From contig CANHJD010000004.1 of the NCBI GenBank assembly GCA_947461145.1, positions 1 through 40,004 of the forward strand: DNA of 40,004 nucleotides. Direction: 5' to 3'. The notes under the pieces were generated by a model. The model had not been told where the DNA came from. It was given only the letters and a program-made list of their open reading frames with translations, and ran no database searches. Below are positions 1,347 through 14,504 of the stretch, in pieces. Every line of letters starts with the position of its first letter. Position 1 is the first letter of the stretch. The DNA comes from Bacteriovoracaceae bacterium. Its GTDB lineage: Bacteria > Bdellovibrionota > Bacteriovoracia > Bacteriovoracales > Bacteriovoracaceae. A program made the position numbers and the translations under genes.

Positions 1347-2297
1347 ATGCCAAGCTTTATTCACAAGGCCCTAAATCGCGAAACTCTGGCGGCCATTGAT
1401 CTTGGCTCAAATGCTCTGCGTGCGAGTATTGCAGTTAAAACCACCGATGGCATTGAAGTTCTTAAAAATATCAGAGTTCCTCTTCGCTTAGGTGAAGATG
1501 TTTTTGCCTTGGGCAGAATCTCTGATGAAAAAATGCAATTAACTGAAGAGGCTTTTATCAGACTTCTTCATCTATTTACTGAATACAATGTCACAATGGC
1601 CGCTGCAAAAGCAACTTCGGCCATGCGAGATTCAAGAAATGGAGCTGAACTCATAAAGCGAATAAAACAATATACTGGAATTGAAATTGAGACCATTTCA
1701 GGAATAGAAGAAGCCAAACTCATCTTTTCTGCTGTTCAAGGCCAGATCTCCATGGAAAAGAAAACGGCTCTCATGATGGATATTGGAGGCGGGAGCACTG
1801 AACTTATTGTCGTTAAGGATAATCAAATTCTCGACGTTCACAGCTTTAATGTAGGAACTGTAAGACTACTAAGATATAAAAACCAGGAAGAACTAGAACT
1901 TAGAATCCGCCTGCAAGTCCAAAAGATGATTCGCTTCATTGAAAAACATCTTGGGAAAAAAAAGCCTGATCTCTTTATTGGAACAGGTGGAAACCTTAGA
2001 CGTATCGGAAAAATTAGAAAAAAAATTTTAGGAAAAGAAACTTCTCAAATGGCCCTTTATCGTGAAGTGGCCCATATGGATGAAATTCTCTTTAGTATGT
2101 CTTATGTCGATCGTATTCGAAGACTTGAGCTAGACCAAAACCGTGCTGATGTTATTTTACCGGCAATTATGCTAACGAAAATTCTCATGGATGAGCTAAA
2201 GATAGATAAAATTCATCTACCCAGAGTTGGTCTTAAAGAAGGGATTATTCTTTCCATGCTTTCTGAGATTCCAAAGAAATTTATTCTTAAAGACTAG
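1347..2297 (+). CDS. ppx: Ppx/GppA-family exopolyphosphatase, short form
   Basis: Predicted to release phosphate from polyphosphate, or to hydrolyse (p)ppGpp-related pentaphosphate, as an ASKHA-fold phosphatase. Visible motifs are the phosphate-1 loop AAIDLGSNALRASIAV near residue 15, ATSAMRDSRNG, ISGIEEAKLIFSAV, the phosphate-2 loop MMDIGGGSTELIVV near residue 147, and GLKEGIILSM at the end. At 316 residues it has only the two ASKHA domains and lacks the C-terminal HD-like extension of E. coli Ppx or GppA (about 500 residues). It converges on sixA and ppk: its TAG and the sixA TAG share the bases CTAG at 2294-2297. The neighbours make polyphosphate the likely substrate, but Ppx and GppA activities cannot be separated from sequence alone. 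Confidence 0.88.
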   Translation: MPSFIHKALNRETLAAIDLGSNALRASIAVKTTDGIEVLKNIRVPLRLGEDVFALGRISDEKMQLTEEAFIRLLHLFTEYNVTMAAAKATSAMRDSRNGAELIKRIKQYTGIEIETISGIEEAKLIFSAVQGQISMEKKTALMMDIGGGSTELIVVKDNQILDVHSFNVGTVRLLRYKNQEELELRIRLQVQKMIRFIEKHLGKKKPDLFIGTGGNLRRIGKIRKKILGKETSQMALYREVAHMDEILFSMSYVDRIRRLELDQNRADVILPAIMLTKILMDELKIDKIHLPRVGLKEGIILSMLSEIPKKFILKD

Positions 2298-2788
2298 TCA
2301 GTTACCACTTTCAAAAATTTTGGACTGATTAAAAGCTCTAAATTAAACCCTTCCCACATTCTTCCCTCTAAAACACAGATTCCACCTTTTTTAATGGTCA
2401 TAAAATCATGTTCTGGGTGTAGGGCCAACAGGCTTGCAATAACCGTAGTGAGATGGGGGTCATGGCCTACGAAGGCGTAACATCCATCGGCCGGCAAAAA
2501 TGAGATGTATTCAACCAGATGAAGTGGATCATCTAAAATATCCAAATCCCCCATCAGCTCAAGGTCAGCCTCTTGGTAATAATTCCAAAAAATTTCGGCC
2601 GATTGTATCGCACGAGCAAGTGGAGAGGAAAAAATCACATCTATTTTTTCTTCATATCTTTTAAAATGTTTGAAAGTTTTATTTAGACGTCTGATCCCCT
2701 CGTCGGTGAGAGTTCTTTCAAAGTCCGCATCTTGATTCAGAGAAAAATGACCTTCGGCCAATCCGTGTCTTACAAAAATTAATTTCAC
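2294..2788 (-). CDS. sixA: SixA-like phosphohistidine phosphatase (histidine phosphatase superfamily)
   Basis: A small single-domain member (164 residues) of the histidine phosphatase branch. It has the catalytic RHG box in FVRHGLAEG (residues 5-13), the arginine-containing FSSPLARAIQSAEIF around residue 54, and the second histidine in FVGHDPHLT. SixA proteins dephosphorylate phosphohistidine on signalling proteins. Here the gene follows ppk with a GTGA overlap (GTG start at 2788), so it is translationally coupled to a kinase that itself carries a phosphohistidine intermediate. A role on PPK or on phosphotransfer proteins is inference. The RHG family assignment is secure, the exact substrate is not. 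Confidence 0.85.
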   Translation of the reverse strand: MKLIFVRHGLAEGHFSLNQDADFERTLTDEGIRRLNKTFKHFKRYEEKIDVIFSSPLARAIQSAEIFWNYYQEADLELMGDLDILDDPLHLVEYISFLPADGCYAFVGHDPHLTTVIASLLALHPEHDFMTIKKGGICVLEGRMWEGFNLELLISPKFLKVVTD

Positions 2789-4911
2789 GTAATTACCTTT
2801 TCCCTATTAACTGTTTTATTCATGAGCTGAAGATGAGTTCCCTTCTCGGCATCATTATCTTTTGGAATCATTTGAGTATAACTTCCATCGTGATTTAGGA
2901 CCCATGCTTGGCGATTATCCAGAAGCATGACTTCAATGAATTCCCAAAGCTTATCTTTCAATTTATTATCATAAATGGGTGTAATTAGCTCCACTCGATT
3001 GTGAAGATTTCTATGCATCCAGTCAGCAGAGCCGATGAAAAACTCTCCTTCATGAATATTTTCACTACCATTAGCGAAATAAAATACTCTTGAGTGCTCA
3101 AGGAATCTTCCAATAATTGAAATGACCTTTATGTTCTCTGAAAGCTTTTTTATCCCAGGCTTAAGACAACAAAAGCCTCTAACGATTAAAATTATTTCTA
3201 CCCCTGCCATACTCGCTTCATAAAGTGATTCGGTAATGACTTCATCTTCCATAGAATTCATCTTGGCGATAATTCGCGCTGGCTTGCCAGCTTTTTTATT
3301 TTTTATTTCCTGTTGAATCTTATTCATGAAAGTCGATTTCATGTTTATGGGAGCAATTAGTAACTCATTATAATCTGTCTTAAGCGAACTACCAGTGAGG
3401 TAGTTAAACACTTCAATCACTTCACTACAAAGAAGTTGATTACAGGTCATTAGTCCAAGATCTGTATAAAGATTTGAAGTTTGAGAATGATAGTTCCCTG
3501 TCCCAATATGAGCGTAGCTCATTATTTCACCATCACTCTCTTTTCTAATAACAAGAGACGTTTTTGTATGGGTTTTAAGCCCCAAAATTCCATACACAAC
3601 ATGGACACCCGCATCTTCAAGCTTTTGGGCCCACACGATATTTCTTTGCTCATCAAAGCGCGCCTTCAATTCAACAAGTGCAACAACTTGCTTGCCTTTT
3701 TCAGCGGCCTTGATCAGATTCTTAATAAACGGAGAATTATCCCCAGTCCGATAAAGGGTCATTTTGATAGTTAAAACATTCGGATCATCGGCCGCTGCAG
3801 CAATAAATCTCTCTACGGTCCCTGAGAAACTTTCATAGGGATGATGAACGAGAATATCCCCTTGTCGAATCAGACCGAAGATATTGGGATTTTCAATAAA
3901 GCCCTTTGGAATGATCGGGGACCATGGTTTAAATTTAAGTTTTGGAAGATCAAGATCGACAATACTTTTTAAGATTGTAAAATCGATTGGAAAGTCCATT
4001 TCATAAATATCTTCATCTAAAATTTCTAAAGAATCTTTTAAGAAACTCGTCACACTTGGGTCAGTAGATTTATGAATTTCAAGCCTCACACATTCAGCAA
4101 GTCTTCTCTCTTTAATTCCCTCTTCTACAAGGATTAAAAGATCCTGCGCCTCATCCTCTCGATGATCGACATCAGCATTTCGTGACACCCGAAATGGAAC
4201 CGTCTGTTGAATCTCCATACCTGGATAAAGCAAATGAAGATTTGAGCGTACCAAAGTTACAGTGGTAACAAAACGGAATTTCTTTTCTCCTTCATGACGA
4301 GGCAGCTGAATAAGACCAGGTATCACTTCAGGAATTTTTACTCTCGAAAAGAGGATGGAATCTTTTTCGGGGTTCTTCAAAATAAGTCCTAAAGAATAGG
4401 ATAAGTTTGAAATGAAGGGAAAAGGATGTCCAGGATCGACGGAAAGTGGGGTCAAAACTGGAAAGATCTTACGCCTAAAATAACTATTTAAATTTTCCTG
4501 ATCTTCGTGACCAAGATCTTCAAAGTCGTAAATATAAATATCATTCCGTTCAAGTTCCGCAACAAGATCAAAGTAGATGATTCTTTGCTTTTCTAGGTCT
4601 ACGTTGATGTGCTTCCTGATGGCTATTAATTGTTCTTGTGGTGTTTGACCATCAACCGAGCGATGTGTGATTCCTGAACTAATTTGATGTTTCAGGTATC
4701 CGATCCTCTTCATCACAAATTCATCAAGATTTGACGAAAAGATAATAAGAAATCTCAACCTCTCTAAAACGGGGTTTCTTTTATCAGATGCCTCGTGCAA
4801 AACTCTTCGGTTAAACTGAAGCCAAGAGATATCCCTGTTGAGAAAGTGGTTTGGATCCACATTAAAATTGATCTTTTTAGGTTGCCGGCCATTGGTCCGT
4901 CTTTTGCGCAT
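2785..4911 (-). CDS. ppk: Polyphosphate kinase 1
   Basis: Reversibly polymerises the gamma-phosphate of ATP into inorganic polyphosphate. The 708-residue product covers the whole PPK1 family: N-terminal NRDISWLQFNRRVLHEA and FSSNLDEFVMKR, the middle ELKARFDEQRN region, the catalytic block AHIGTGNYHS whose first histidine (residue 468) matches the autophosphorylated histidine of E. coli PPK1, then LYTDLGLMT, and the second conserved histidine in LEHSRVFYF. It is the first gene of a two-gene operon with sixA. A near-perfect copy of the recurrent TGTC-N9-GACA palindrome lies 13 bases upstream of its ATG (4924-4940), so it may be part of that regulon. Polyphosphate usually supports stress survival and energy storage. 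Confidence 0.97.
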   Translation of the reverse strand: MRKRRTNGRQPKKINFNVDPNHFLNRDISWLQFNRRVLHEASDKRNPVLERLRFLIIFSSNLDEFVMKRIGYLKHQISSGITHRSVDGQTPQEQLIAIRKHINVDLEKQRIIYFDLVAELERNDIYIYDFEDLGHEDQENLNSYFRRKIFPVLTPLSVDPGHPFPFISNLSYSLGLILKNPEKDSILFSRVKIPEVIPGLIQLPRHEGEKKFRFVTTVTLVRSNLHLLYPGMEIQQTVPFRVSRNADVDHREDEAQDLLILVEEGIKERRLAECVRLEIHKSTDPSVTSFLKDSLEILDEDIYEMDFPIDFTILKSIVDLDLPKLKFKPWSPIIPKGFIENPNIFGLIRQGDILVHHPYESFSGTVERFIAAAADDPNVLTIKMTLYRTGDNSPFIKNLIKAAEKGKQVVALVELKARFDEQRNIVWAQKLEDAGVHVVYGILGLKTHTKTSLVIRKESDGEIMSYAHIGTGNYHSQTSNLYTDLGLMTCNQLLCSEVIEVFNYLTGSSLKTDYNELLIAPINMKSTFMNKIQQEIKNKKAGKPARIIAKMNSMEDEVITESLYEASMAGVEIILIVRGFCCLKPGIKKLSENIKVISIIGRFLEHSRVFYFANGSENIHEGEFFIGSADWMHRNLHNRVELITPIYDNKLKDKLWEFIEVMLLDNRQAWVLNHDGSYTQMIPKDNDAEKGTHLQLMNKTVNREKVIT

Positions 4912-4923
4912 AGTATTCCGAAG

Positions 4924-4940
4924 TGTCTAAAGTTTAGGCA
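4924..4940. promoter_or_regulatory. Palindromic motif copy 1 (TGTC-N9-GGCA)
   Basis: TGTC, then TAAAGTTTA, then GGCA, differing from the other copies by one base in the right half-site. It lies 13 bases upstream of the ppk ATG, in the 226-base gap between ppk and the divergent exported-protein gene. Confidence 0.5.
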
Positions 4941-5137
4941 TTAGGCCCAGGATCGTGAAAATATTAGTCGATTCCCAACTCTTATTTTATTAAGAGCTTG
5001 CTCTCAAGACAAGTAAATAACCCCCTGAAATAAATGCCATTCTTGTGCCCGAATAGTGAAGTTTTTTAGATGGGATACAGTTGGCATAGGACTCGCAAAG
5101 TACAAGGTAATCTAGTTTATTTTTATGGGGGTCTTTT

Positions 5138-6133
5138 ATGTCACGAAATCAACATTTTTTGGCCTTATTGCCACTTCTCTCAGTCTTAACAATGGCCCCA
5201 GCAGAAATTAAACCACAAGCAAACTATCGCTCTCTTGCCTCTGTTGAAGAAGTAAAACAGTCTGCTTATCCCAAATATGATGCAAGAGCAGAGAAAATTG
5301 ATCGCTCTCAAATTCAAATAAGCGCTGATCTTGATTTATCAGCTTTCTCCAAAAAGGGAGAGGACTTTCGCGAGAAACTACTTAAAGAGAGAAAAGAATA
5401 TAAAGTTGATGAGGTAAACAAGGAAGCCGTTGCTAGCCAGAAGAAAAGGATAGAAGACCTTGTGATAGGCATGGTTGAACTTGAAGAGAATGCAAGAACT
5501 CTCAAAGAGAAGAAGGTCTGGACAGAAATGGGTGAAGAGATTGCTCAGAAAACCATGGCCGAATTAAAGACGACCCTTGAAAGTTTATTACAGGATGAAA
5601 TTGAAAATGAAGTTATCGTCTTAAAAGATGAATCTAAGACGAAAGCACCTAGTTCCCTTTGTGACTTAGAAGAAAAGAATAAAATTCTTACTAAACAAGT
5701 AGAAGATCTTTTAGCAGAACAGAAAAGAATTCTAGAATCTATGACAGGAATGAGTAGCATGATGGTAGAAATGAACCAACGCCTCCAGCAAGCTCAACAA
5801 CCCTATTCCATACCAAGCTGGTTGATGGCCGGCTCCTTAGTTAATCCTCAGTTTCAGTATCCCTATATGGCGGGCCCAACCATAATCATGGTCACTAACT
5901 CTCAGGCCCCCCAGGCTGAAATGAATTTTATCGGAGGATCGAATCCACATTTAGGTCAGCAAAATTTTGATCAAAATATTCAATCTGGGCAGTATCAACT
6001 TGGCCCACAGATTTACCCTATTCAAAATAACTATTTTTCACCTGCTCCATTCTCGTCTCCAGTAATAAGTGATCCAAATTCATTTAATTTTGGCCAGGTG
6101 GGTATGGGCCAATTCTCCCCGCTGACAGTTTAA
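5138..6133 (+). CDS. Exported coiled-coil protein with Pro/Gln-rich tail, unknown function
   Basis: Not recognised. The 331-residue product begins with a probable signal peptide (MSRNQHFLALLPLLSVLTMAPA). From about residue 60 to 215 it is highly charged and heptad-like, with coiled-coil stretches (EEKNKILTKQVEDLLAEQKR) ending in MSSMMVEMNQRLQQAQQ. The last third is low in charge and rich in Pro, Gln, Asn and Tyr, as in a disordered or surface-exposed tail. A GGGGG Shine-Dalgarno run lies 6 bases before the ATG. It is a single gene with its own perfect terminator. A structural or envelope-associated role is possible but unproven. Confidence 0.75.
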   Translation: MSRNQHFLALLPLLSVLTMAPAEIKPQANYRSLASVEEVKQSAYPKYDARAEKIDRSQIQISADLDLSAFSKKGEDFREKLLKERKEYKVDEVNKEAVASQKKRIEDLVIGMVELEENARTLKEKKVWTEMGEEIAQKTMAELKTTLESLLQDEIENEVIVLKDESKTKAPSSLCDLEEKNKILTKQVEDLLAEQKRILESMTGMSSMMVEMNQRLQQAQQPYSIPSWLMAGSLVNPQFQYPYMAGPTIIMVTNSQAPQAEMNFIGGSNPHLGQQNFDQNIQSGQYQLGPQIYPIQNNYFSPAPFSSPVISDPNSFNFGQVGMGQFSPLTV

Positions 6134-6148
6134 ATCAACTTCTCCTCT

Positions 6149-6176
6149 ACGCTCACCAAGTGGTGAGCGTTTTTTT
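6149..6176 (+). terminator. Rho-independent terminator after the coiled-coil protein gene
   Basis: ACGCTCACCA (6149-6158) and TGGTGAGCGT (6161-6170) form a perfect stem followed by a T-run. It starts 15 bases after the stop codon. Confidence 0.92.
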
Positions 6177-6232
6177 CCTCATGAATAAAATTTTCTTTCC
6201 GAAAAGTCATTCAACCCAACTGCGAGGGGTGA

Positions 6233-6475
6233 ATGAAAGAATTAAAAAATCTTGATAAAGAAAAATTACTTATCCGAGCCTGCCATACTTGCACGAAACT
6301 TACTGAATCAACTTATGAAATCGAAAGATGCTCGCACTGCAGCAAAGCGTTCCTTCCCCTACGCTATTTTGAAAAAATTCACGACTTTAAAGGCGAAAGT
6401 TGGCAGAAACACTTCTCCCCAGCAGATGAGATGGAGAATGAAGATTTGATCAAAGGTCTGTTTGTTTTGTGGTGA
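6233..6475 (+). CDS. Small zinc-finger-like protein (two CxxC knuckles)
   Basis: An 80-residue cytosolic protein with no signal peptide. It contains CHTC and CSHC about 15 residues apart (residues 17-20 and 33-36), a typical four-cysteine zinc knuckle, followed by a charged, aromatic C-terminus. GAGGGG lies just upstream of the ATG. The gene is 19 bases ahead of recJ on the same strand, so the two are probably co-transcribed. Function unknown; a structural zinc site is the only inference the sequence supports. Confidence 0.7.
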   Translation: MKELKNLDKEKLLIRACHTCTKLTESTYEIERCSHCSKAFLPLRYFEKIHDFKGESWQKHFSPADEMENEDLIKGLFVLW

Positions 6476-6494
6476 TCTATGCTAGTTTCTAAGA

Positions 6495-8210
6495 ATGGAA
6501 CTTACATCAAACTCAACCACTTCTCCTCTACATCCAGTTCTTATTCGCCTTTTTAAAAAACGAGCTCTTACCCCTCAGGCCATTCAAGAAATGCTTTCTT
6601 GGAATCTTAAAGACATTCCGGATGTCACAAAAATGATAGATCTGCAGAAAGCCTCGGAGAGAATACTCAAAGCGATGAGTGAAAATGAGAAGATTGGCAT
6701 TTATGGTGACTATGATGTTGATGGCACCACGTCCTGCGCTCTGCTTTGGCATTTCTTTAATATGATTGGTATTGAAGTTGAAGTGTTTCAGCCTTCTCGA
6801 TTCATTGAAGGCTATGGAGTCCATGTTTCATCAATTGATAATGCAATTGAGAAAAATGTAAAAGTTCTCATCACAGTTGATTGCGGTATTTCTGCCACAT
6901 CAACTGCGGACTATGCTCAGGGTAAACTTGATCTGATAATTACTGATCATCATAAAGACGCTGCTCCTCATATTCCTCGCGCCTATGCAGTCATAAACCC
7001 CTGTCGCCGTGATGAGGCCGAAGATTCTACTCTGCGCACTCTTGCAGGGGTCGGAGTCGCTTTTGCCCTTGCTCTACAAATTAAAAATGATCTTTTAAAA
7101 ATAGGTAAAGAAACCCCGTCCATCTACTCGCTTTTACAATTTGTTGCCATTGGGACAATTTCTGATTTGGCACCAATGAGTGCGCTAAATTTGCGTCTTA
7201 CTCGTCACGGATTAAAGCAAATTCCTTCAACTCAGTATCCTGGTCTCAGAGCATTTTTCTCCCCCGAAGAATTAAATGTAAATTCTATTTCTAGCGAAAA
7301 GATTGGCTTCCATGTTGGGCCCCATATTAATTCTAAAGGAAGACTTGATCACCCTGAGAGGGCGCTCAGACAATTAATTGCTAAAGATTTCACTGAAGCA
7401 AGAGAACACTACTCTCACCTTGAACTCGCCAATAGAGATCGTCGCCTGATTCAAGCCGAAGTTTTTAGTGAAGCAAAAGAAGATGTCATCCAAGATTTAA
7501 ATGGCAATGAACTTCTCATCAATATGCTTTACCGGCCACATTGGCACGAAGGAGTAATAGGAATCGTTGCCTCAAAGCTAGTGGAAACATTTGAAGTTCC
7601 CGCTATTGTTTTCACAAATGCTGAGGAAGATGGAGTCATAAAAGCAAGCTGTAGAAGTGCTGGAGAATTAAATATCTTTGATCTACTTGATCAATGCAAA
7701 GAATTTTTCATAAAGTTTGGAGGCCACAAAGCCGCCGCTGGCCTTTCAATGAAGAAAGAAAACTATCTCCCCTTTAAAGCAAAAATGAATGATCTTCTGA
7801 TGGAGATTCCCCTCAACCTTAGGACCAAAACATCTAGTTTTGACATCGAAATTGGCCTCGAAGAAATTGACTCAAAACTGGTTAAAGACCTTGAAACCCT
7901 AGAACCTTTTGGTCCTGGGAATCAAAGACCTATTTTTCGCATGAAAAACGCCCAGATTTCATCTTACAGAATCATGAAGGATGCTCATGTAAGGTGGACC
8001 TTCAGCTCCCCTGGCGCTCATAAATCAACAATTCAGGGGGTCAGCTTTAATTATCTTGGAAAATGGAATGAACCAACCCCTGAAGAACTCTTTCAGCTTC
8101 AGGCAAAATCTGGCATAACAGTGCAGTTTACCCTGGGTATTAATCGATTCAATGGTAATGAGAGCATCCAGTTAATGGTTGAACGTATTATTCCTGGTCA
8201 GGTTAGCTAA
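6495..8210 (+). CDS. recJ: Single-stranded-DNA-specific exonuclease RecJ
   Basis: A 5'-3' single-strand exonuclease for recombination and mismatch or base-excision repair. The 571-residue length matches bacterial RecJ. The DHH-family metal motifs are in order: GIYGDYDVDGTTS (motif I, near residue 63), ITVDCGIS (II), IITDHH (III), NPCRRDE, LAGVGVAFAL and GTISDLAP (IV). The DHHA1 part follows with KASCRSAGELNIFDLL and the glycine-rich FGGHKAAAGLSM. The C-terminal OB-like region, including LEPFGPGNQRPIF, is intact. No strong Shine-Dalgarno is visible before the ATG at 6495, consistent with coupling to the small upstream gene. Confidence 0.96.
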   Translation: MELTSNSTTSPLHPVLIRLFKKRALTPQAIQEMLSWNLKDIPDVTKMIDLQKASERILKAMSENEKIGIYGDYDVDGTTSCALLWHFFNMIGIEVEVFQPSRFIEGYGVHVSSIDNAIEKNVKVLITVDCGISATSTADYAQGKLDLIITDHHKDAAPHIPRAYAVINPCRRDEAEDSTLRTLAGVGVAFALALQIKNDLLKIGKETPSIYSLLQFVAIGTISDLAPMSALNLRLTRHGLKQIPSTQYPGLRAFFSPEELNVNSISSEKIGFHVGPHINSKGRLDHPERALRQLIAKDFTEAREHYSHLELANRDRRLIQAEVFSEAKEDVIQDLNGNELLINMLYRPHWHEGVIGIVASKLVETFEVPAIVFTNAEEDGVIKASCRSAGELNIFDLLDQCKEFFIKFGGHKAAAGLSMKKENYLPFKAKMNDLLMEIPLNLRTKTSSFDIEIGLEEIDSKLVKDLETLEPFGPGNQRPIFRMKNAQISSYRIMKDAHVRWTFSSPGAHKSTIQGVSFNYLGKWNEPTPEELFQLQAKSGITVQFTLGINRFNGNESIQLMVERIIPGQVS

Positions 8211-8327: not shown

Positions 8328-8807
8328 ATGAAACATTTTTTAGCAACACTTGTCCTATCGACGACACTTTTGACGTCATTTGCAAGAGCAAATGATGAAA
8401 CACGACTTTGTAGCAATATTGTCAAAAGACAATTACCCATGTTGGAACATACTAACGAATTCGCTACAAATGACTTGGTACTTTTCTCTTTCTTCTCAAT
8501 GCCAATAATCCTTTTATTTCCACCTACGGCCGTAGTCGTTACTGCGCCGATATATTTTAAGGCCCGAGCAGTCATTAAAGTGAAAAATGCAAAAGACCTA
8601 TTAGCAATTTATGACGAAGCGGCAAATGAAGGTGGGAAAAAGACTAAGAAGCTCTATAGAAAGCTCTTAAAAATGCACCCTAGTTCGGAACTTACATACG
8701 AAGAATTTCTTGGGGCGATCCATGAATCAGATCTTAATGGAACTGATTGCCAAAAAGAGCTACCTAAGAAAAAAGATATCATTACGATTGTTGAAGCAGA
8801 CGCATAA
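8328..8807 (+). CDS. Small exported protein with a hydrophobic segment, unknown
   Basis: A 159-residue protein with a clear signal peptide (MKHFLATLVLSTTLLTSFARA, probable cleavage before NDE). A strongly hydrophobic stretch at about residues 50-75 (LVLFSFFSMPIILLFPPTAVVV) is followed by a Lys-rich helical C-terminal half and two cysteines, one near each end. GGAGG lies 6 bases before the ATG. It is monocistronic with a perfect terminator. Like the neighbouring small exported proteins it pairs a signal peptide with a hydrophobic core, but I see no real sequence match to them. No family recognised. Confidence 0.75.
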   Translation: MKHFLATLVLSTTLLTSFARANDETRLCSNIVKRQLPMLEHTNEFATNDLVLFSFFSMPIILLFPPTAVVVTAPIYFKARAVIKVKNAKDLLAIYDEAANEGGKKTKKLYRKLLKMHPSSELTYEEFLGAIHESDLNGTDCQKELPKKKDIITIVEADA

Positions 8808-8813
8808 GACTTC

Positions 8814-8843
8814 AAGTCCCTGGCCTAGCGCCAGGGACTTTTA
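8814..8843 (+). terminator. Rho-independent terminator after the small exported protein gene
   Basis: AAGTCCCTGGC (8814-8824) pairs with GCCAGGGACTT (8830-8840) around a CTAGC loop, followed by TTTTA. It lies between two convergent genes. The T-run is on the plus strand only. Confidence 0.9.
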
Positions 8844-8845
8844 TA

Positions 8846-10906
8846 CTAGAATTTAATTTTTGAACTTGAATAAAAGCCATTTAGATCAAAGAAATTTTTC
8901 CAATCAAGATTTAAAACATTTTCCCCATTTAGCAAAAAAGATTCAGGAATCAAATCAACTTCAAGTTTTTCAATTAAGGCGGAATTCTGCAAGAGAAGCG
9001 TATTTTTTTGTTTTAAAAGAGAACAATCAAATTTAAATTTAGTTTTTTGTTCAAATCGGTTGATATTACCAATAAATTGACGATTTAAGATAAGAGATAA
9101 TGAGCCTGAAACGGGTTTTTGCATGGGAATTTCAATCGAGCATTTTTTTTCAGTATTTTCCATCAAAGGATTTGAGGAGAAAGCTTGCGACATTAAATTT
9201 TCTTGAATCGTAAACGAAAGTGAACTGTCCACCTTCTTTAAAAAATCAGTAAAACCTTGAAGGGGAACTTGCTCACCGTCTTCTAAAATATCATTCTCTT
9301 GAACAAAATTGAGTACCTTTTTCTTATGTATACTTGGCGACTCCTCAAAAACTTTAGATAAACCGTAAGTTTCAAGAATATTCTCTGAATGACATGTATA
9401 AAAGCTTAAGCTCATTAGACCTGACGAAAGAGATCCAAAGTAGGTAGAAGGATATTGATTAAAAGTGGAATCAATCATTTTTTTATAATCACCAACAGAA
9501 TGGGTAATAATAATTAAATTGCCAACATTTGATTGTTGAAGAAGTTCTTTAACAGTATTAAGTGTATTCGAGGGGATAAGCTCCCATTTTAACTTAGTTG
9601 AGTTAAATAAGTTGAACTTTGAACTCAGACTCTTAAATTGATTCTCAATAATCAAATGCTGATCATAGAGAGATTCATTCTTAAATCCTTCAAGTTTTTC
9701 TTTTAATGAAACATAATATGCATAATCAAACTTTTTCTTAATCTTTAGTTGGCGACATTTATTCAAATCTTTTTGGCGGTACAATTTATTAAAAATTTTT
9801 CTTTGAGTTGATAACTCTTTTTGAAGCTCATTATAGGCATCCCAAGATCCAGCAGATTTCATTTTTATTATCAGATCCTCTGGAGGAGCAAGGGAAACAA
9901 TTATGTTTCTAAGTTTTGGAAGACTAGATGCATTTTGTTTAATAAATAATTCATCTGAGGTTAGAAGCACTTTTGTATCGGGCTTGGCCATAAAGCCAGG
10001 ATTCAATGTTGAAACTAGCGCCTCTCTAAATTCTTCTGCTTTGAATTTAGCTGTTTTGGATTCACTTACATTAAGAAGGTATTCACAAAAATTACCATCG
10101 GTAATTTCCTCACGCCATGGGGGTGGGGCCGTATCTGAGGCCTTACGACTTAGACTTGCTCCCCATTTTTGACCAAGATTGGCAGCATTAAAAAAAGCCG
10201 TTTTTGTTTTTAAAAAATTATTGCAGAAGTTTTGATCCTCTTTATTTAAATGGGTGCCCTCCGTACAAACTCTTAATATAAGGGCATTGACTAAAGGTAC
10301 TGCAAGCAAGGGAGCGACTATAGGATTGGAGCCTAGAGCAACAGAGTAGGCACGATAAAGAAAAAAATAGCCAATCGAGGTGATCCTTTTGTTTCCTAGA
10401 AGATCATTGACTCCCATTTGGGAAATCGTCGTCTCAGCTCCAGACTTAAACCCGACAATAAAACGAGCTAAAAAGCGTACAGGAAAGCTAAGAGTCAGAT
10501 TAATTACATTCGTTGTATGGGCTACGCCCTTAATACCGCCTTTGAAAACAGAATCAGTGGAGAGACAAAATTTTGTATAAAACTGAATTATTTCTGACTT
10601 AGGATCTTCAATCTTCTCAAGAGATTTAAGAAGCTTAAGGTGCTCTTTGAGAATTTTTCTCTCCCGACGAGACAACTCCTCGCCTTGTAAAGTGGCGGAC
10701 GTGTCTTCAATGGCTTCTTTGCTCATTTGTCTAAATTCATCGGCACTCAAATCACCAAGACTTTGTTTGGCCTCTTCAGCGAAATGACACCGAAAGGACT
10801 TTTCATGCAAATCAAATGAAGGTGTCTGCGCCCCACTGACGGTTGAATAGGCTACTGTCAAAATAATTGACAGTAACAAAGAAAATTTTCTCCAGTTTTT
10901 CAGCAT
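8846..10906 (-). CDS. Large exported protein with HS...TCHS putative cysteine-peptidase-like region (paralogue A)
   Basis: Family not recognised. The start was placed at 10906 because GGAAAGGA precedes that ATG and the product then opens with a signal peptide (MLKNWRKFSLLLSIILTV...SGA); an earlier in-frame ATG at 10948 would bury it. The product has 686 residues. About 110-230 is hydrophobic and may cross a membrane; 280-430 is charged and helical; then NLIIITHS (His469) and SLSFYTCHS (Cys505), 36 residues apart; the C-terminal 150 residues look beta-rich (SLSLILNRQFIG, FDCSLLKQKNTLLL). The last 250 residues align with the protein at 12521-13729. The strand-His and strand-Cys spacing resembles clan CD cysteine peptidases, but this is inference. 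It lies downstream of three small exported paralogues, behind a 15-bp hairpin. Confidence 0.78.
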   Translation of the reverse strand: MLKNWRKFSLLLSIILTVAYSTVSGAQTPSFDLHEKSFRCHFAEEAKQSLGDLSADEFRQMSKEAIEDTSATLQGEELSRRERKILKEHLKLLKSLEKIEDPKSEIIQFYTKFCLSTDSVFKGGIKGVAHTTNVINLTLSFPVRFLARFIVGFKSGAETTISQMGVNDLLGNKRITSIGYFFLYRAYSVALGSNPIVAPLLAVPLVNALILRVCTEGTHLNKEDQNFCNNFLKTKTAFFNAANLGQKWGASLSRKASDTAPPPWREEITDGNFCEYLLNVSESKTAKFKAEEFREALVSTLNPGFMAKPDTKVLLTSDELFIKQNASSLPKLRNIIVSLAPPEDLIIKMKSAGSWDAYNELQKELSTQRKIFNKLYRQKDLNKCRQLKIKKKFDYAYYVSLKEKLEGFKNESLYDQHLIIENQFKSLSSKFNLFNSTKLKWELIPSNTLNTVKELLQQSNVGNLIIITHSVGDYKKMIDSTFNQYPSTYFGSLSSGLMSLSFYTCHSENILETYGLSKVFEESPSIHKKKVLNFVQENDILEDGEQVPLQGFTDFLKKVDSSLSFTIQENLMSQAFSSNPLMENTEKKCSIEIPMQKPVSGSLSLILNRQFIGNINRFEQKTKFKFDCSLLKQKNTLLLQNSALIEKLEVDLIPESFLLNGENVLNLDWKNFFDLNGFYSSSKIKF
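10856..10872. promoter_or_regulatory. Palindromic motif copy 2 (TGTC-N9-GACA)
   Basis: TGTC, AAAATAATT, GACA, extended to an 8-bp stem over 10853-10875. It lies inside the signal-peptide codons of paralogue A, about 35-50 bases after its start. Its position inside coding sequence makes it the least certain copy. Confidence 0.35.
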
Positions 10907-10952
10907 CTTATATCCTTTCCAGGATAATACATGAAAGAACCATGCCAAATGA

Positions 10953-10985
10953 GAAAGGCCTTCTTCATCATGAAGAAGGCCTTTC
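10953..10985 (-). promoter_or_regulatory. Perfect 15-bp intercistronic hairpin
   Basis: GAAAGGCCTTCTTCA (10953-10967) and its exact complement (10971-10985) enclose a 3-base loop. It lies between the small exported gene ending at 11007 and the large gene starting at 10906. On the minus strand only a broken T-stretch follows, so it may be a leaky terminator or an RNA-stability hairpin. Confidence 0.75.
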
Positions 10986-11006
10986 GGAACAATGAGGAAC
11001 GTCAGT

Positions 11007-11507
11007 CTACTTAGTTAATGTTGAAACAAGATCGGTTAATTGGGCATCAGACAGATCAAGACTTTCTACTGATTCCAGAATTTCAGACTCAGAAAGAACA
11101 ACTAAAGAGTTACCTTCAGTATCTTTTGTCATTGCATACTGATCCAAGATTTTAGAAGCCAAGCTATCTAAGGCAGAAGCATCATCAAGGTATGGATAAC
11201 GGTTAAGAAGTGCCCCTTTCGTATTATTGAAATTCTTTACTGGCTTTTCATCCAACACGAACAATCCAGAGTAAAGAGTTTGCATACTGTAACCAGTATA
11301 AGTAAACCAAAATCCAAAAGGAATCATTGTCGCAAAACCAATATAAGGTATCAAATTATCCAAAGTCTCATACTTATGGTTTAAAACGAACTGGTCCGTT
11401 GCAGCAAGAATGAGAAATCCTGCCTTTGCCTCTTTTTTGGGAGCAGCTAAAGTTAAAAAAGAGACCGCTAGTAATCCAAAAAACAATTTTTTTAATAATG
11501 ATTTCAT
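11007..11507 (-). CDS. Small exported protein, tandem paralogue 1
   Basis: A 166-residue product. The ATG at 11507 was chosen because GGAG lies 8 bases upstream; the TTG at 11519 is not needed. It has a signal peptide ending KEAKAG, a hydrophobic region with one or two possible membrane spans (residues 55-90), then the family block GLFVLDE and NRYPYLDD, and an acidic C-terminus with VVLSESEILESVESL. It aligns with the next two upstream genes through FVLD, the YPxLD block and the VVLSEEEL-like tail, and is the most diverged of the three. Function unknown; the tail of acidic helices after a membrane-like core could be periplasmic. Confidence 0.75.
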   Translation of the reverse strand: MKSLLKKLFFGLLAVSFLTLAAPKKEAKAGFLILAATDQFVLNHKYETLDNLIPYIGFATMIPFGFWFTYTGYSMQTLYSGLFVLDEKPVKNFNNTKGALLNRYPYLDDASALDSLASKILDQYAMTKDTEGNSLVVLSESEILESVESLDLSDAQLTDLVSTLTK

Positions 11508-11519
11508 TTTGTTCTCCAA

Positions 11520-11996
11520 TTAAATGTTCTTAAGAGTAGGTTGTGTAAAATCAAGTCTGATTTTTTCTGCTAGAGCCGAATTAGTCACTGCTAAAACGTC
11601 TAAAACAGTACTTAAATCATCTACTGACACAACAACTTCCTTCAGTCCTTTTTCATTGAAGTCAACATTACTTGCATTATCCAAAACAATATGTGAAAGC
11701 TCGTCTACTAAATATGAATCTAGTTCTGGATACCTGTTGGCAATCATTTCATTTAACTTTCCAGATTCTAAATCCTTGTCCAGCACAAAAAGAATCGCTG
11801 CTATTGGATTTATTCCTTCTGACTGGATTCCCCAAAAAAATCCAGCTGAACTCAAAGTAAGTCCAATAAGTGGTCCGATGATTGTTGCAGTTGCACAACC
11901 AATAATAATGCCAGCGTTAGCATTTTGAGATGGAAGTGAAGCTGAGCCAAAAGTAATTGAAAGAGCAATAAGGGAACTTGATAATAATTTTTTCAT
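11520..11996 (-). CDS. Small exported protein, tandem paralogue 2
   Basis: A 158-residue product with signal peptide MKKLLSSSLIALSITFGSASLPSQ..ANAG, then a Gly/Ala/Ile-rich hydrophobic segment (residues 29-70), ILFVLDKD, ANRYPELDSYLVDEL, and a C-terminal VVVSVDDLSTVLDVLAVTN. CAGGAG lies 7 bases before the ATG. It is closest to paralogue 3: ANRYPELDSYL against SKNFPELESYL, and VLDVLAVTNSAL against VLEVLSMTNPEL. Only 12 bases separate its stop from the ATG of paralogue 1. No known family. The long antisense ORF over it is a shadow. Confidence 0.78.
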   Translation of the reverse strand: MKKLLSSSLIALSITFGSASLPSQNANAGIIIGCATATIIGPLIGLTLSSAGFFWGIQSEGINPIAAILFVLDKDLESGKLNEMIANRYPELDSYLVDELSHIVLDNASNVDFNEKGLKEVVVSVDDLSTVLDVLAVTNSALAEKIRLDFTQPTLKNI

Positions 11997-12029
11997 AAAT
12001 AATCTCCTGAGTGTTTTTTTTTAGTTTAA

Positions 12030-12524
12030 TTAATTCTCTAGAACTTGTTTTGTGAGTTTATTTCTTAACTCATCACCAAGCTCCGGGTTAGTCATAGAAA
12101 GTACCTCAAGAACAGGATTTAGCTCCTCTTCAGACAATACAACTTCTTTGTAACCATCAGCATTCAATTCAACTAAATTGGACTTTTCTCTTAAAAGTCC
12201 AGCAACCTCAGTAACTAAATATGACTCAAGTTCAGGAAAGTTTTTCGAAATCATCTTTTCAACATTGTTGGTTTCAATCTGCTCATCAAGCATAAAAAGG
12301 CCCCAACCCAGCCATGCCTTGTCTAAATTCTCAATCGTCCAGTAGATTGAAGTCACAGACAGACCGAAACCGCCAAACATTCCGGCAATTCCCAGTACAG
12401 GCCCTGCATAAAGCGAAGCCGTAGTCATAATAATAACGCCAGCATCTGCCTTTTTTGTTGTGATGGCCGTTGATCCAAATAGGATCGATAATGCGAGCAT
12501 CAAGTTAATAATTGTCTTTTTCAT
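12030..12524 (-). CDS. Small exported protein, tandem paralogue 3
   Basis: A 164-residue product with a signal peptide ending KKADAG, a glycine-rich hydrophobic region (residues 30-75, AGPVLGIAGMFGGFGLS), then WGLFMLDEQ, KNFPELESYLVTEV and a C-terminal VVLSEEELNPVLEVL. Its ATG overlaps the stop of the upstream large gene as ATGA (12521-12524), and a strong GGAGG stands before it, so expression is coupled to paralogue B. Membrane association is likely from the hydrophobic block. An immunity, lock or pore-like role beside the putative peptidase-like proteins is speculation. Confidence 0.78.
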   Translation of the reverse strand: MKKTIINLMLALSILFGSTAITTKKADAGVIIMTTASLYAGPVLGIAGMFGGFGLSVTSIYWTIENLDKAWLGWGLFMLDEQIETNNVEKMISKNFPELESYLVTEVAGLLREKSNLVELNADGYKEVVLSEEELNPVLEVLSMTNPELGDELRNKLTKQVLEN

Positions 12525-13729
12525 AGTTTTCCTCCAAAAGTTCCAATAGTTAATAAATGGTTTTCTCTGTTTTTAGATATAAATTCTTTGGTAGTAGCTA
12601 CCAAAGTGGCCTTCGAACTCGTGATTATCTTGATAGCGCTGATCTGTAATGGTTCCCGCTTAGCACTTCCAAGGTAATAAACTTTTATCGTATTTGAATT
12701 TTCAGAAACTAACCCACAGTCTATCTGTGTGTTTAGTGATAATGCTCCAATAAACTGGTCGTTTAAACTAATTACAACGTTGTCCTTTACTTCTGGGAGC
12801 TCAACTAAGACCGAACATTGTCTATCTGATTTTAAATTAATTCTCATTCCTGCTTCTGCAACGGCCAGCATACCTTTTACAGCAACTACAGGAACTTTAG
12901 TTGAATAGACTTCTTTAAATTCCTCTTGTACTTCAGGAAAGTAGTAATCTATTTTATGAGAGAGTTTTTTTATTTCGTAGTACTCTAGGACCTGTCTTGA
13001 ATGACAGCTATACATGATCACTTTTTTAATATTCCCTGGGAGGTTTGAGAACGCTCCTTTTGGAAAAATATTCTTTTTAGCGTCATAAATACGCCCTATT
13101 TCATCAGAATGAGAAACAAGCATTATCTGAGTGATTGATTTTGTCTTTTCAAGGGTTTTATACATTTCAAATAAGTCTGAAGACAGAACTATATTCCAAC
13201 CCTTCCTTGAAAAACGCTTTAACTTCTTCAAAAGAATATTCGTAGATTGAGCTTCTTTTTTATCATTCAATACATCTAAGTTTTTATTGTATTCGTTGAT
13301 ATAGTCACTCATTTGCTCAAAATCATTTGGATTATTCTTTACCACTTCTAAGCATGCATTTACGTCCTTCACGCCTCGTAGTTCAGAAATAATTGGAAGA
13401 TGAGCAATCTCGGCTTCGCGATTTTTTAAAGTTTCAAGAGCTTTAAAGTCAACAAGCGGTAATGGCAAATGAACAAAAATATACTTTGAGTCTTTAGAAG
13501 AGTTTTTTTGATTGTCTTTAATCTCTTCGTCTGCACCCATAAAACTAGCTTTGATGATCTTTTTTGGACGAAGGATGATTTTCCAAGTTAAGGACGTTGG
13601 GATCTTAGATTCTTTAGCTTCAGCAGAAAGAGTGATAAAGCTTTCACAAAATTCTTTGCCTGTTGCCCCCTGAGCAACTCCACAAGCAATAAGTAAAATA
13701 ATAAAAGCAGTAAAAACTCTGGTTCTCAT
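12521..13729 (-). CDS. Exported protein with HS...SCHS putative cysteine-peptidase-like region (paralogue B)
   Basis: First gene of the block, 402 residues, with signal peptide MRTRVFTAFIILLIACGVAQG. The central part has QIMLVSHSDEIGR (His207) and KKVIMYSCHSRQVLEYY (Cys242), 35 residues apart, each at the end of a predicted hydrophobic beta strand. The C-terminus repeats the features of paralogue A: a cysteine plus LVELP, VVISLNDQFIGAL, IDCGLV and NTIKVYYLG. It lacks paralogue A's hydrophobic N-terminal region. The alignment between the two is clear across about 220 residues. A caspase/CHAT-type fold would explain the invariant H and C, but no experimental family is recalled and a structural comparison would be needed. 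Confidence 0.78.
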   Translation of the reverse strand: MRTRVFTAFIILLIACGVAQGATGKEFCESFITLSAEAKESKIPTSLTWKIILRPKKIIKASFMGADEEIKDNQKNSSKDSKYIFVHLPLPLVDFKALETLKNREAEIAHLPIISELRGVKDVNACLEVVKNNPNDFEQMSDYINEYNKNLDVLNDKKEAQSTNILLKKLKRFSRKGWNIVLSSDLFEMYKTLEKTKSITQIMLVSHSDEIGRIYDAKKNIFPKGAFSNLPGNIKKVIMYSCHSRQVLEYYEIKKLSHKIDYYFPEVQEEFKEVYSTKVPVVAVKGMLAVAEAGMRINLKSDRQCSVLVELPEVKDNVVISLNDQFIGALSLNTQIDCGLVSENSNTIKVYYLGSAKREPLQISAIKIITSSKATLVATTKEFISKNRENHLLTIGTFGGKL

Positions 13730-13886: not shown

Positions 13887-13967
13887 TATTTCTGGTTCAT
13901 TTGCGGTAAATAATTGAAAAGAACAGCCGATAAGAAGACAGACAATTTTTTGAAAAAGGAATCCAAT

Positions 13968-14504
13968 ATGAAGCTTCTTGTGTGTTTTATGTTACTCTCG
14001 ATAAGTATCCCAGCTTTCTCTAAATCTAAAACTTACACAATTCCCAAGGGGAAGCATTATTCGAAGGGTCTTCATTTTGGCTACTTTCATAATGAAATCA
14101 TGTCTATAAAAGCAAAGTTTAATAGTTCTGCAATTTATTCAACTGTTGCCTCTGGCAACCAAGCCGATATTAATAAACTTTATGGCTTCTCAGATTGTTG
14201 GAGTGCACACCATAAGAACTCAGCTCGCTTTGGCTGGAGATATCTTGATAACAAGCTAGAATTAATGGCCTATGTGTATTCTGGCAAACAACGCTCCTAT
14301 CTAAAACTTGGTGATCTTGAAATGGATAAATGGCAAGAAATGAATATTAAAGTCGATAGTGGCAAATACATCTTTAAATTTAATGGAAAGAGTTTTGAAA
14401 TGCCTAGAGGATGTAAAACGAAGAAGGCAAATGGTTATAAACTCTTTCCGTATTTTGGGGGAGATGAAACAGCTCCGCATGAAATTAAAATTGAAATTGA
14501 ATAG
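13968..14504 (+). CDS. Exported protein, possible lectin-like beta-sandwich
   Basis: The start was set at the ATG at 13968: AAAGGA (13955-13960) precedes it and a signal peptide follows (MKLLVCFMLLSISIPAFS). The 178-residue product has alternating strands and characteristic stretches INKLYGFSDCWSAHHKNSAR, FGWRYLDNKLELMAYVY, a WQEM strand and a final FPYFGGDETAPHEI. I have a general memory of similar unannotated proteins in Bacteroidetes but cannot name the family. A concanavalin-like sandwich is inference from the strand pattern and the closing DETAPHEI strand. The next gene starts 16 bases later, so the two are likely co-expressed. Confidence 0.72.
   Translation: MKLLVCFMLLSISIPAFSKSKTYTIPKGKHYSKGLHFGYFHNEIMSIKAKFNSSAIYSTVASGNQADINKLYGFSDCWSAHHKNSARFGWRYLDNKLELMAYVYSGKQRSYLKLGDLEMDKWQEMNIKVDSGKYIFKFNGKSFEMPRGCKTKKANGYKLFPYFGGDETAPHEIKIEIE

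Follow-up and report, generated by a model that had tools for sequence, protein, structure and literature searches.

Bacterial gasdermin genes lie next to the gene for a protease, so that a protease and a membrane-active protein are encoded side by side (PMC9079055), and passages of PMC3501461 describe some prokaryotic caspase homologues with one N-terminal helix, possibly a signal peptide. Here we analyse a window of 40,004 nucleotides from a Bacteriovoracaceae bacterium (GCA_947461145.1, contig CANHJD010000004.1; genome G000, 2.65 Mb in 212 contigs and an estimated ~86% complete), in which five genes between positions 8846 and 13729 encode two large exported proteins, A and B, predicted to adopt a caspase fold, and three small exported proteins, S1 to S3. 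The block resembles the gasdermin arrangement in its adjacent candidate protease and membrane-active protein, but differs in that both are exported and in that the small protein, judged from its sequence, joins a hydrophobic, glycine-rich part to a soluble one. To our knowledge, the bacterial caspase-like enzymes with a nearby substrate all act in the cytoplasm.

With Peptidase_C14 proteins and orthocaspases, A and B share the His-Cys pair and, as predicted, the fold class. They differ from the former in giving no match above cut-off and in aligning poorly with the C14 proteins of their phylum, and from the CHAT or caspase-like proteases of CRISPR systems (SAVED-CHAT, TPR-CHAT) in being exported, in their PLAT-like domain and in lacking a Pfam CHAT match. 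The conserved dyad, export and gene pairing together suggest an enzyme with a dedicated partner. We tentatively read A and B as exported caspase-fold cysteine enzymes with a PLAT-like domain, each with its own small partner, most likely a substrate (probability about 0.38).

Gene layout and predicted fold of the large proteins

The features discussed below are, from the upstream end of the block:

12521-13729, minus strand: B, exported protein of 402 amino acids (aa), modelled as a caspase-like alpha/beta domain (residues ~79-300) and a PLAT-like beta sandwich (304-398)
13109-13111, minus strand: His207 of B, end of predicted strand 199-208
13004-13006, minus strand: Cys242 of B, directly after predicted strand 236-240
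12030-12524, minus strand: S1, 164 aa, small exported partner of B, its start overlapping the B stop
12282-12299, minus strand: LFMLDE motif of S1, end of the hydrophobic part
11520-11996, minus strand: S2, 158 aa, second small exported partner in the B module
11775-11792, minus strand: LFVLDK motif of S2
11007-11507, minus strand: S3, 166 aa, small exported partner in the A module (S3-A pair also at G310:C18, locus L095)
11247-11264, minus strand: LFVLDE motif of S3
10953-10985, minus strand: hairpin of 15 pairs with a loop of 3, between S3 and A
8846-10906, minus strand: A, 686 aa from its ATG, in an open frame running to 10948
9500-9502, minus strand: His469 of A (ITHS), aligned with His207 of B
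9392-9394, minus strand: Cys505 of A (YTCHS), aligned with Cys242 of B

Several observations of an earlier note on this DNA hold up on closer analysis. Gene sizes and coordinates agree with its description of five genes on one strand with one ATGA overlap, which joins the B stop to the S1 start, and the signal peptides it assigned to all five proteins correspond to hydrophobic, signal-like N-terminal stretches in the hydropathy profiles. The shared C-terminal part of A and B, including HS, [ST]CHS, QFIG and DC, aligned over 272 columns at 21% identity (6e-10 in a single comparison); A carries an extra N-terminal half in addition to the same His/Cys block and beta domain. S1 to S3 are paralogues, as proposed, with 23 invariant columns and identities to S1 of 36% and 28%. 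Nor could a family be named for any of the five: Pfam and NCBIfam (PHROGs left out) gave no match above curated cut-offs, and PADLOC anti-phage defence models none at E up to 1 for eight proteins including these five. A weak DUF4347 row on B residues 11-32 (0.024) fell on the signal-like stretch and was rejected, and a plasmid origin of B was dismissed as tblastn found no match in a plasmid collection. For S1-S3, the absence of a Pfam match above cut-off has to be read against a database that may not cover bacterial gasdermins.

Both A and B are predicted to have a clan CD-like caspase fold, nearest to CHAT and caspases. According to passages of PMC4626109, the catalytic His and Cys of clan CD directly follow strands 3 and 4 of the central sheet; the model of B conforms in strand placement, with His207 ending strand 199-208 and Cys242 following strand 236-240. 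The C-terminal domain of B is predicted from the model to be a PLAT-like beta sandwich. A sequence search of the PDB returned a single weak match (0.52), between the beta domain and a carbohydrate esterase, and neither Peptidase_C14 nor CHAT gave a Pfam row for A, B or 19 relatives. Peptidase_C14 proteins were present in 10 of the 114 genomes examined from the phylum (loci L171-L184) and not in G000; several of them start with a signal-like stretch by eye. Profile comparison of the large family with 13 of these proteins gave no significant match and a poor alignment; reversed controls reached at most 0.5%, while one of 20 column-shuffled controls per query scored 99%, an unexplained result that makes the shuffled control a poor one.

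At E up to 0.001 and with remote types counted, the large-family profile matched 24 of the 129 genomes searched in the order and 38 of the 368 in the phylum, a patchy distribution; within the order, 14 genomes had a match to B and four to S1, its own genome counted. Among the 53 matches listed, with at most seven candidates scored per genome, 37 were strong homologues (E <=1.3e-30). The Cys242 position was kept in all 37 and the His207 position in 35, and a profile of 19 C-terminal domains has two blocks of invariant residues, the first with His, Asp and Cys and the second with Cys, Asn and Cys. That the residue after the His is Ser, Ala, Thr or Val, and not Gly, in 15 of 22 proteins favours a different view, in which the large proteins are pseudo-enzymes or binding proteins anchored to the membrane by the small ones in a structural complex, with His and Cys serving folding or binding. 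A PLAT-like domain could likewise bind lipid or a partner, and the partner in the remote type described below retains the motif although its soluble part lies elsewhere in the chain. However, 35 of 37 divergent proteins retain both His and Cys, which seems more than binding alone would require, and we consider such a complex unlikely.

The large-family profile also matched solo exported proteins of 222-381 aa with an SHG...C block (L115-L118, L125; 96.7%, 3.5e-10), with His, Asp and Cys in register. These differ from A and B in having no accepted motif-bearing small partner beside them; in L116, a 128-aa exported neighbour 580 bases off, with a motif match at its end, was not accepted as one. 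The L118 protein scored 13.7 bits (0.052) against Pfam Peptidase_C14, below the gathering cut-off of 21.4, and PDB searches with the solo family returned six Wzz-type rows and one designed protein. Besides complete homologues, a 152-aa open frame at L130:2443-2901 (G096:C41) matches the N-terminal part of B (5e-10) and then diverges; lying beside the regulator pair described below, it is a truncated second copy.

Pairing of large and small genes

In line with the proposed adjacency of the two families in other genomes, 30 of the 37 strong large homologues (two being the window's own) had a small exported same-strand neighbour that combines a hydrophobic stretch with an acidic motif (e.g. LFVLDE), vs. 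6 of 99 other genes of at least 250 aa in the same loci (Fisher 1e-17). Because this rule was chosen with the data in view and the loci share ancestry, the p-value serves only as a guide. A strict form of the rule came first (19/37 vs. 2/99) and was relaxed after it missed S1; an intermediate form gave 23/37 vs. 2/99, and signal plus size alone 30/37 vs. 20/99. At times, for instance in S3, the relaxed rule reports a place other than the intended motif.

Four of the seven unpaired strong homologues lie at contig edges (G099:C10, G105:C31, G053:C72 and G307:C569, the last with the end of a small gene visible at the edge), and a fifth (G308:C77) has intact His and Cys. The remaining two (G313:C29 and G315:C1) have lost the His and together make up a single clade nested within the paired group; the contig of G313:C29 ends 23 bases past the gene, leaving its downstream side unseen. 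Among the 16 weaker large matches, the neighbour was of the LVLDE type in four and ended at an LTLEGEE-like motif in another four; one match had a doubtful 93-aa neighbour and five had none, and two were unjudged fragments. A remote large type (e.g. LGHP...MTCHES) was seen at L120, L122, L123 and L124, with another exported gene after it; the small neighbour of this type has an LLSLLTLEGEE-like tail, and here the soluble part precedes the hydrophobic part.

Conversely, the small profile found only four sites without a large gene in the 368 genomes searched, so small genes mostly lacking a large partner, the pattern that would speak against a linked pair, is not what we observe. Two of these sites are in G000 at C11 and the others in G310:C13 and G326:C190 (L167:3812-4366 and L169:2798-3379); one row that falls in an 840-aa frame (G367) was excluded without being read. 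At the former (L037, G000:C11:15000-24000), S1-like and S2-like paralogues at 4241-7099 adjoin genes for a TPR/winged-helix-like protein and an exported GGGG protein, and a second regulator pair lies at 1653-3381.

The orphans, together with several loci that have two small paralogues per large gene, are what one might expect if the exported protease acted on other cells or on the cell's own envelope and the small membrane protein were its inhibitor or immunity factor. Immunity sets often change fast. In our data, by contrast, small and large distances go together (r 0.69 for 29 pairs, 0.52 for 22 thinned pairs), a correlation that arises in part because both follow species. On balance, a self-protection role is possible but doubtful, and gene order, considered below, bears on it as well.

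Two modules in one block

The earlier note had pictured one large gene duplicated at the ends of the block and one small gene triplicated between them. Phylogenetic trees do not support this: A and B fall into separate supported groups; members of another family (f22) occur within the S1 group (90/79) as well as within the S2 group, which is weaker (67/86); and S3 groups with the neighbour of an A homologue in G310 (99/99). Local triplication of the small gene was therefore rejected on the basis of the small-protein tree. The A homologue in question (G310_C18A) is 43.6% identical over 691 columns and has an S3 homologue (43%) directly upstream, while G310 carries a B-type gene and a small gene on another contig. 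B-S1-S2 was present in all six named B loci, with the B/S1 overlap in five; these are metagenome-assembled genomes labelled Bacteriovoracaceae bacterium, Bacteriovorax stolpii (two), Bdellovibrio sp., Bdellovibrionales bacterium and Proteobacteria bacterium. S3 then follows in L132, on whose contig (G099) S2 and then S3 precede the contig end. From these groupings, [B S1 S2] and [S3 A] appear to be two older modules that have become neighbours in the window's lineage. Of the earlier interpretation, the lack of a named family and the adjacency elsewhere thus stand, and the duplication and triplication lack support; neither caspase-like features nor the hairpin between S3 and A appear in it.

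A possible substrate and its expression

In 41 small proteins, the stretch before the motif had a mean hydropathy of 1.1 and 15% Gly, and the following part carried a net charge of -8 on average (G073s and G304s, which are not acidic, being exceptions). The motif was placed by eye after automatic placing failed, which makes its Leu, found in 41/41, partly a matter of choice; the next residue was Asp in 31. Membrane association of the small protein is predicted.

We propose that the mature small protein would sit in or at the membrane with its hydrophobic, Gly-rich N-terminal part, which in this type ends at the Leu-Asp-type motif and is followed by the acidic soluble part, so placing the motif near the surface. 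The large protein, presumably catalytic, would cut its partner at or near the motif, and in many modules the small protein may be made in excess. We prefer a substrate to other kinds of partner because neighbours of caspase-like enzymes turned out to be substrates (PMC9079055). The Asp after the motif Leu is not invariant, and the small protein of the remote type ends at the motif; both facts argue against strict cleavage behind Asp with release of a C-terminal part. Joint loss of His and partner was fully seen only once, which lowered our odds for the proposal from 0.40 to 0.38. Reportedly, one further study found the neighbour of a caspase-like enzyme to be its substrate. A bolder version is an exported counterpart of caspase-gasdermin pairs: outside the cytoplasm, the enzyme would cut its partner at the membrane surface, and the Gly-rich hydrophobic part so released would perforate or remodel a membrane, perhaps the prey's, each module having its own matched partner. 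This version strikes us as improbable.

Of the 12 small-large pairs with a gap of at least 30 bases, 10 have a hairpin between the genes, vs. 5/33 other gaps (p 5e-5); hairpins are absent from pairs with shorter gaps. In L095, a T run comes after the hairpin between S3 and A, resembling an intrinsic terminator; the T run in the window is weaker, and a simple terminator scan of the window did not list the hairpin at 10953-10985. Such hairpins may end transcription and could yield more small than large protein, and a single transcript of all five genes is a weakened proposition given the one between S3 and A. A small gene that often comes first, followed by a hairpin and perhaps in excess, would also suit an immunity factor; in B modules, however, the large gene comes first with the small one coupled by overlap (5/6 named loci). 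Given this order and the hairpin-free shorter gaps, excess of the small protein is not general. Another hairpin (AAGTCCCTGGC...GCCAGGGACTT) at ~8813-8842, between the convergent ends of A and a 159-aa gene (8328-8807), is perhaps a two-way terminator.

Several B-type modules adjoin a gene for a small exported GGG protein and a TPR-like gene whose C-terminal part weakly resembles the DNA-binding domain of response regulators, the TPR and DNA-binding matches both falling below cut-off. The four f22 genomes searched each have one copy of the TPR gene (E up to 1e-5), located beside the module. It lies next to B in G092, as a broken copy there in G096, and as a cut copy in G099, on the module's contig with other genes between; of the five copies in G000 none is beside this block, and no copy was seen in G103, which has no B module.

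Directly upstream of B in L133 (5150-5995) is a gene for an exported 282-aa protein with a type IX-kind C-terminal sorting domain (Por_Secre_tail, 3.3e-10). The window protein at 13914-14504 looks like it by eye; it is encoded on the other strand and lacks both the sorting domain and a Pfam match. Clan CD includes transamidases, and a neighbour such as that in L133 would fit a sortase-like large protein that attaches the small or other exported proteins to the envelope. Against this, inspection by eye revealed no sorting-like end common to the small proteins, and the similar window protein is without a Pfam match, making this the least probable of the readings considered.

The fold class is already known, but its pairing with a small exported partner is undescribed in the literature and databases searched; no paper describing it was found, with coverage short of most subscription journals. 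If our interpretation is true, A and B would add a family of extracytoplasmic caspase-fold enzymes, each with a genetically linked partner, to a phylum known for bacterial predators. The pair is small and testable, and offers a handle on several nameless protein families.
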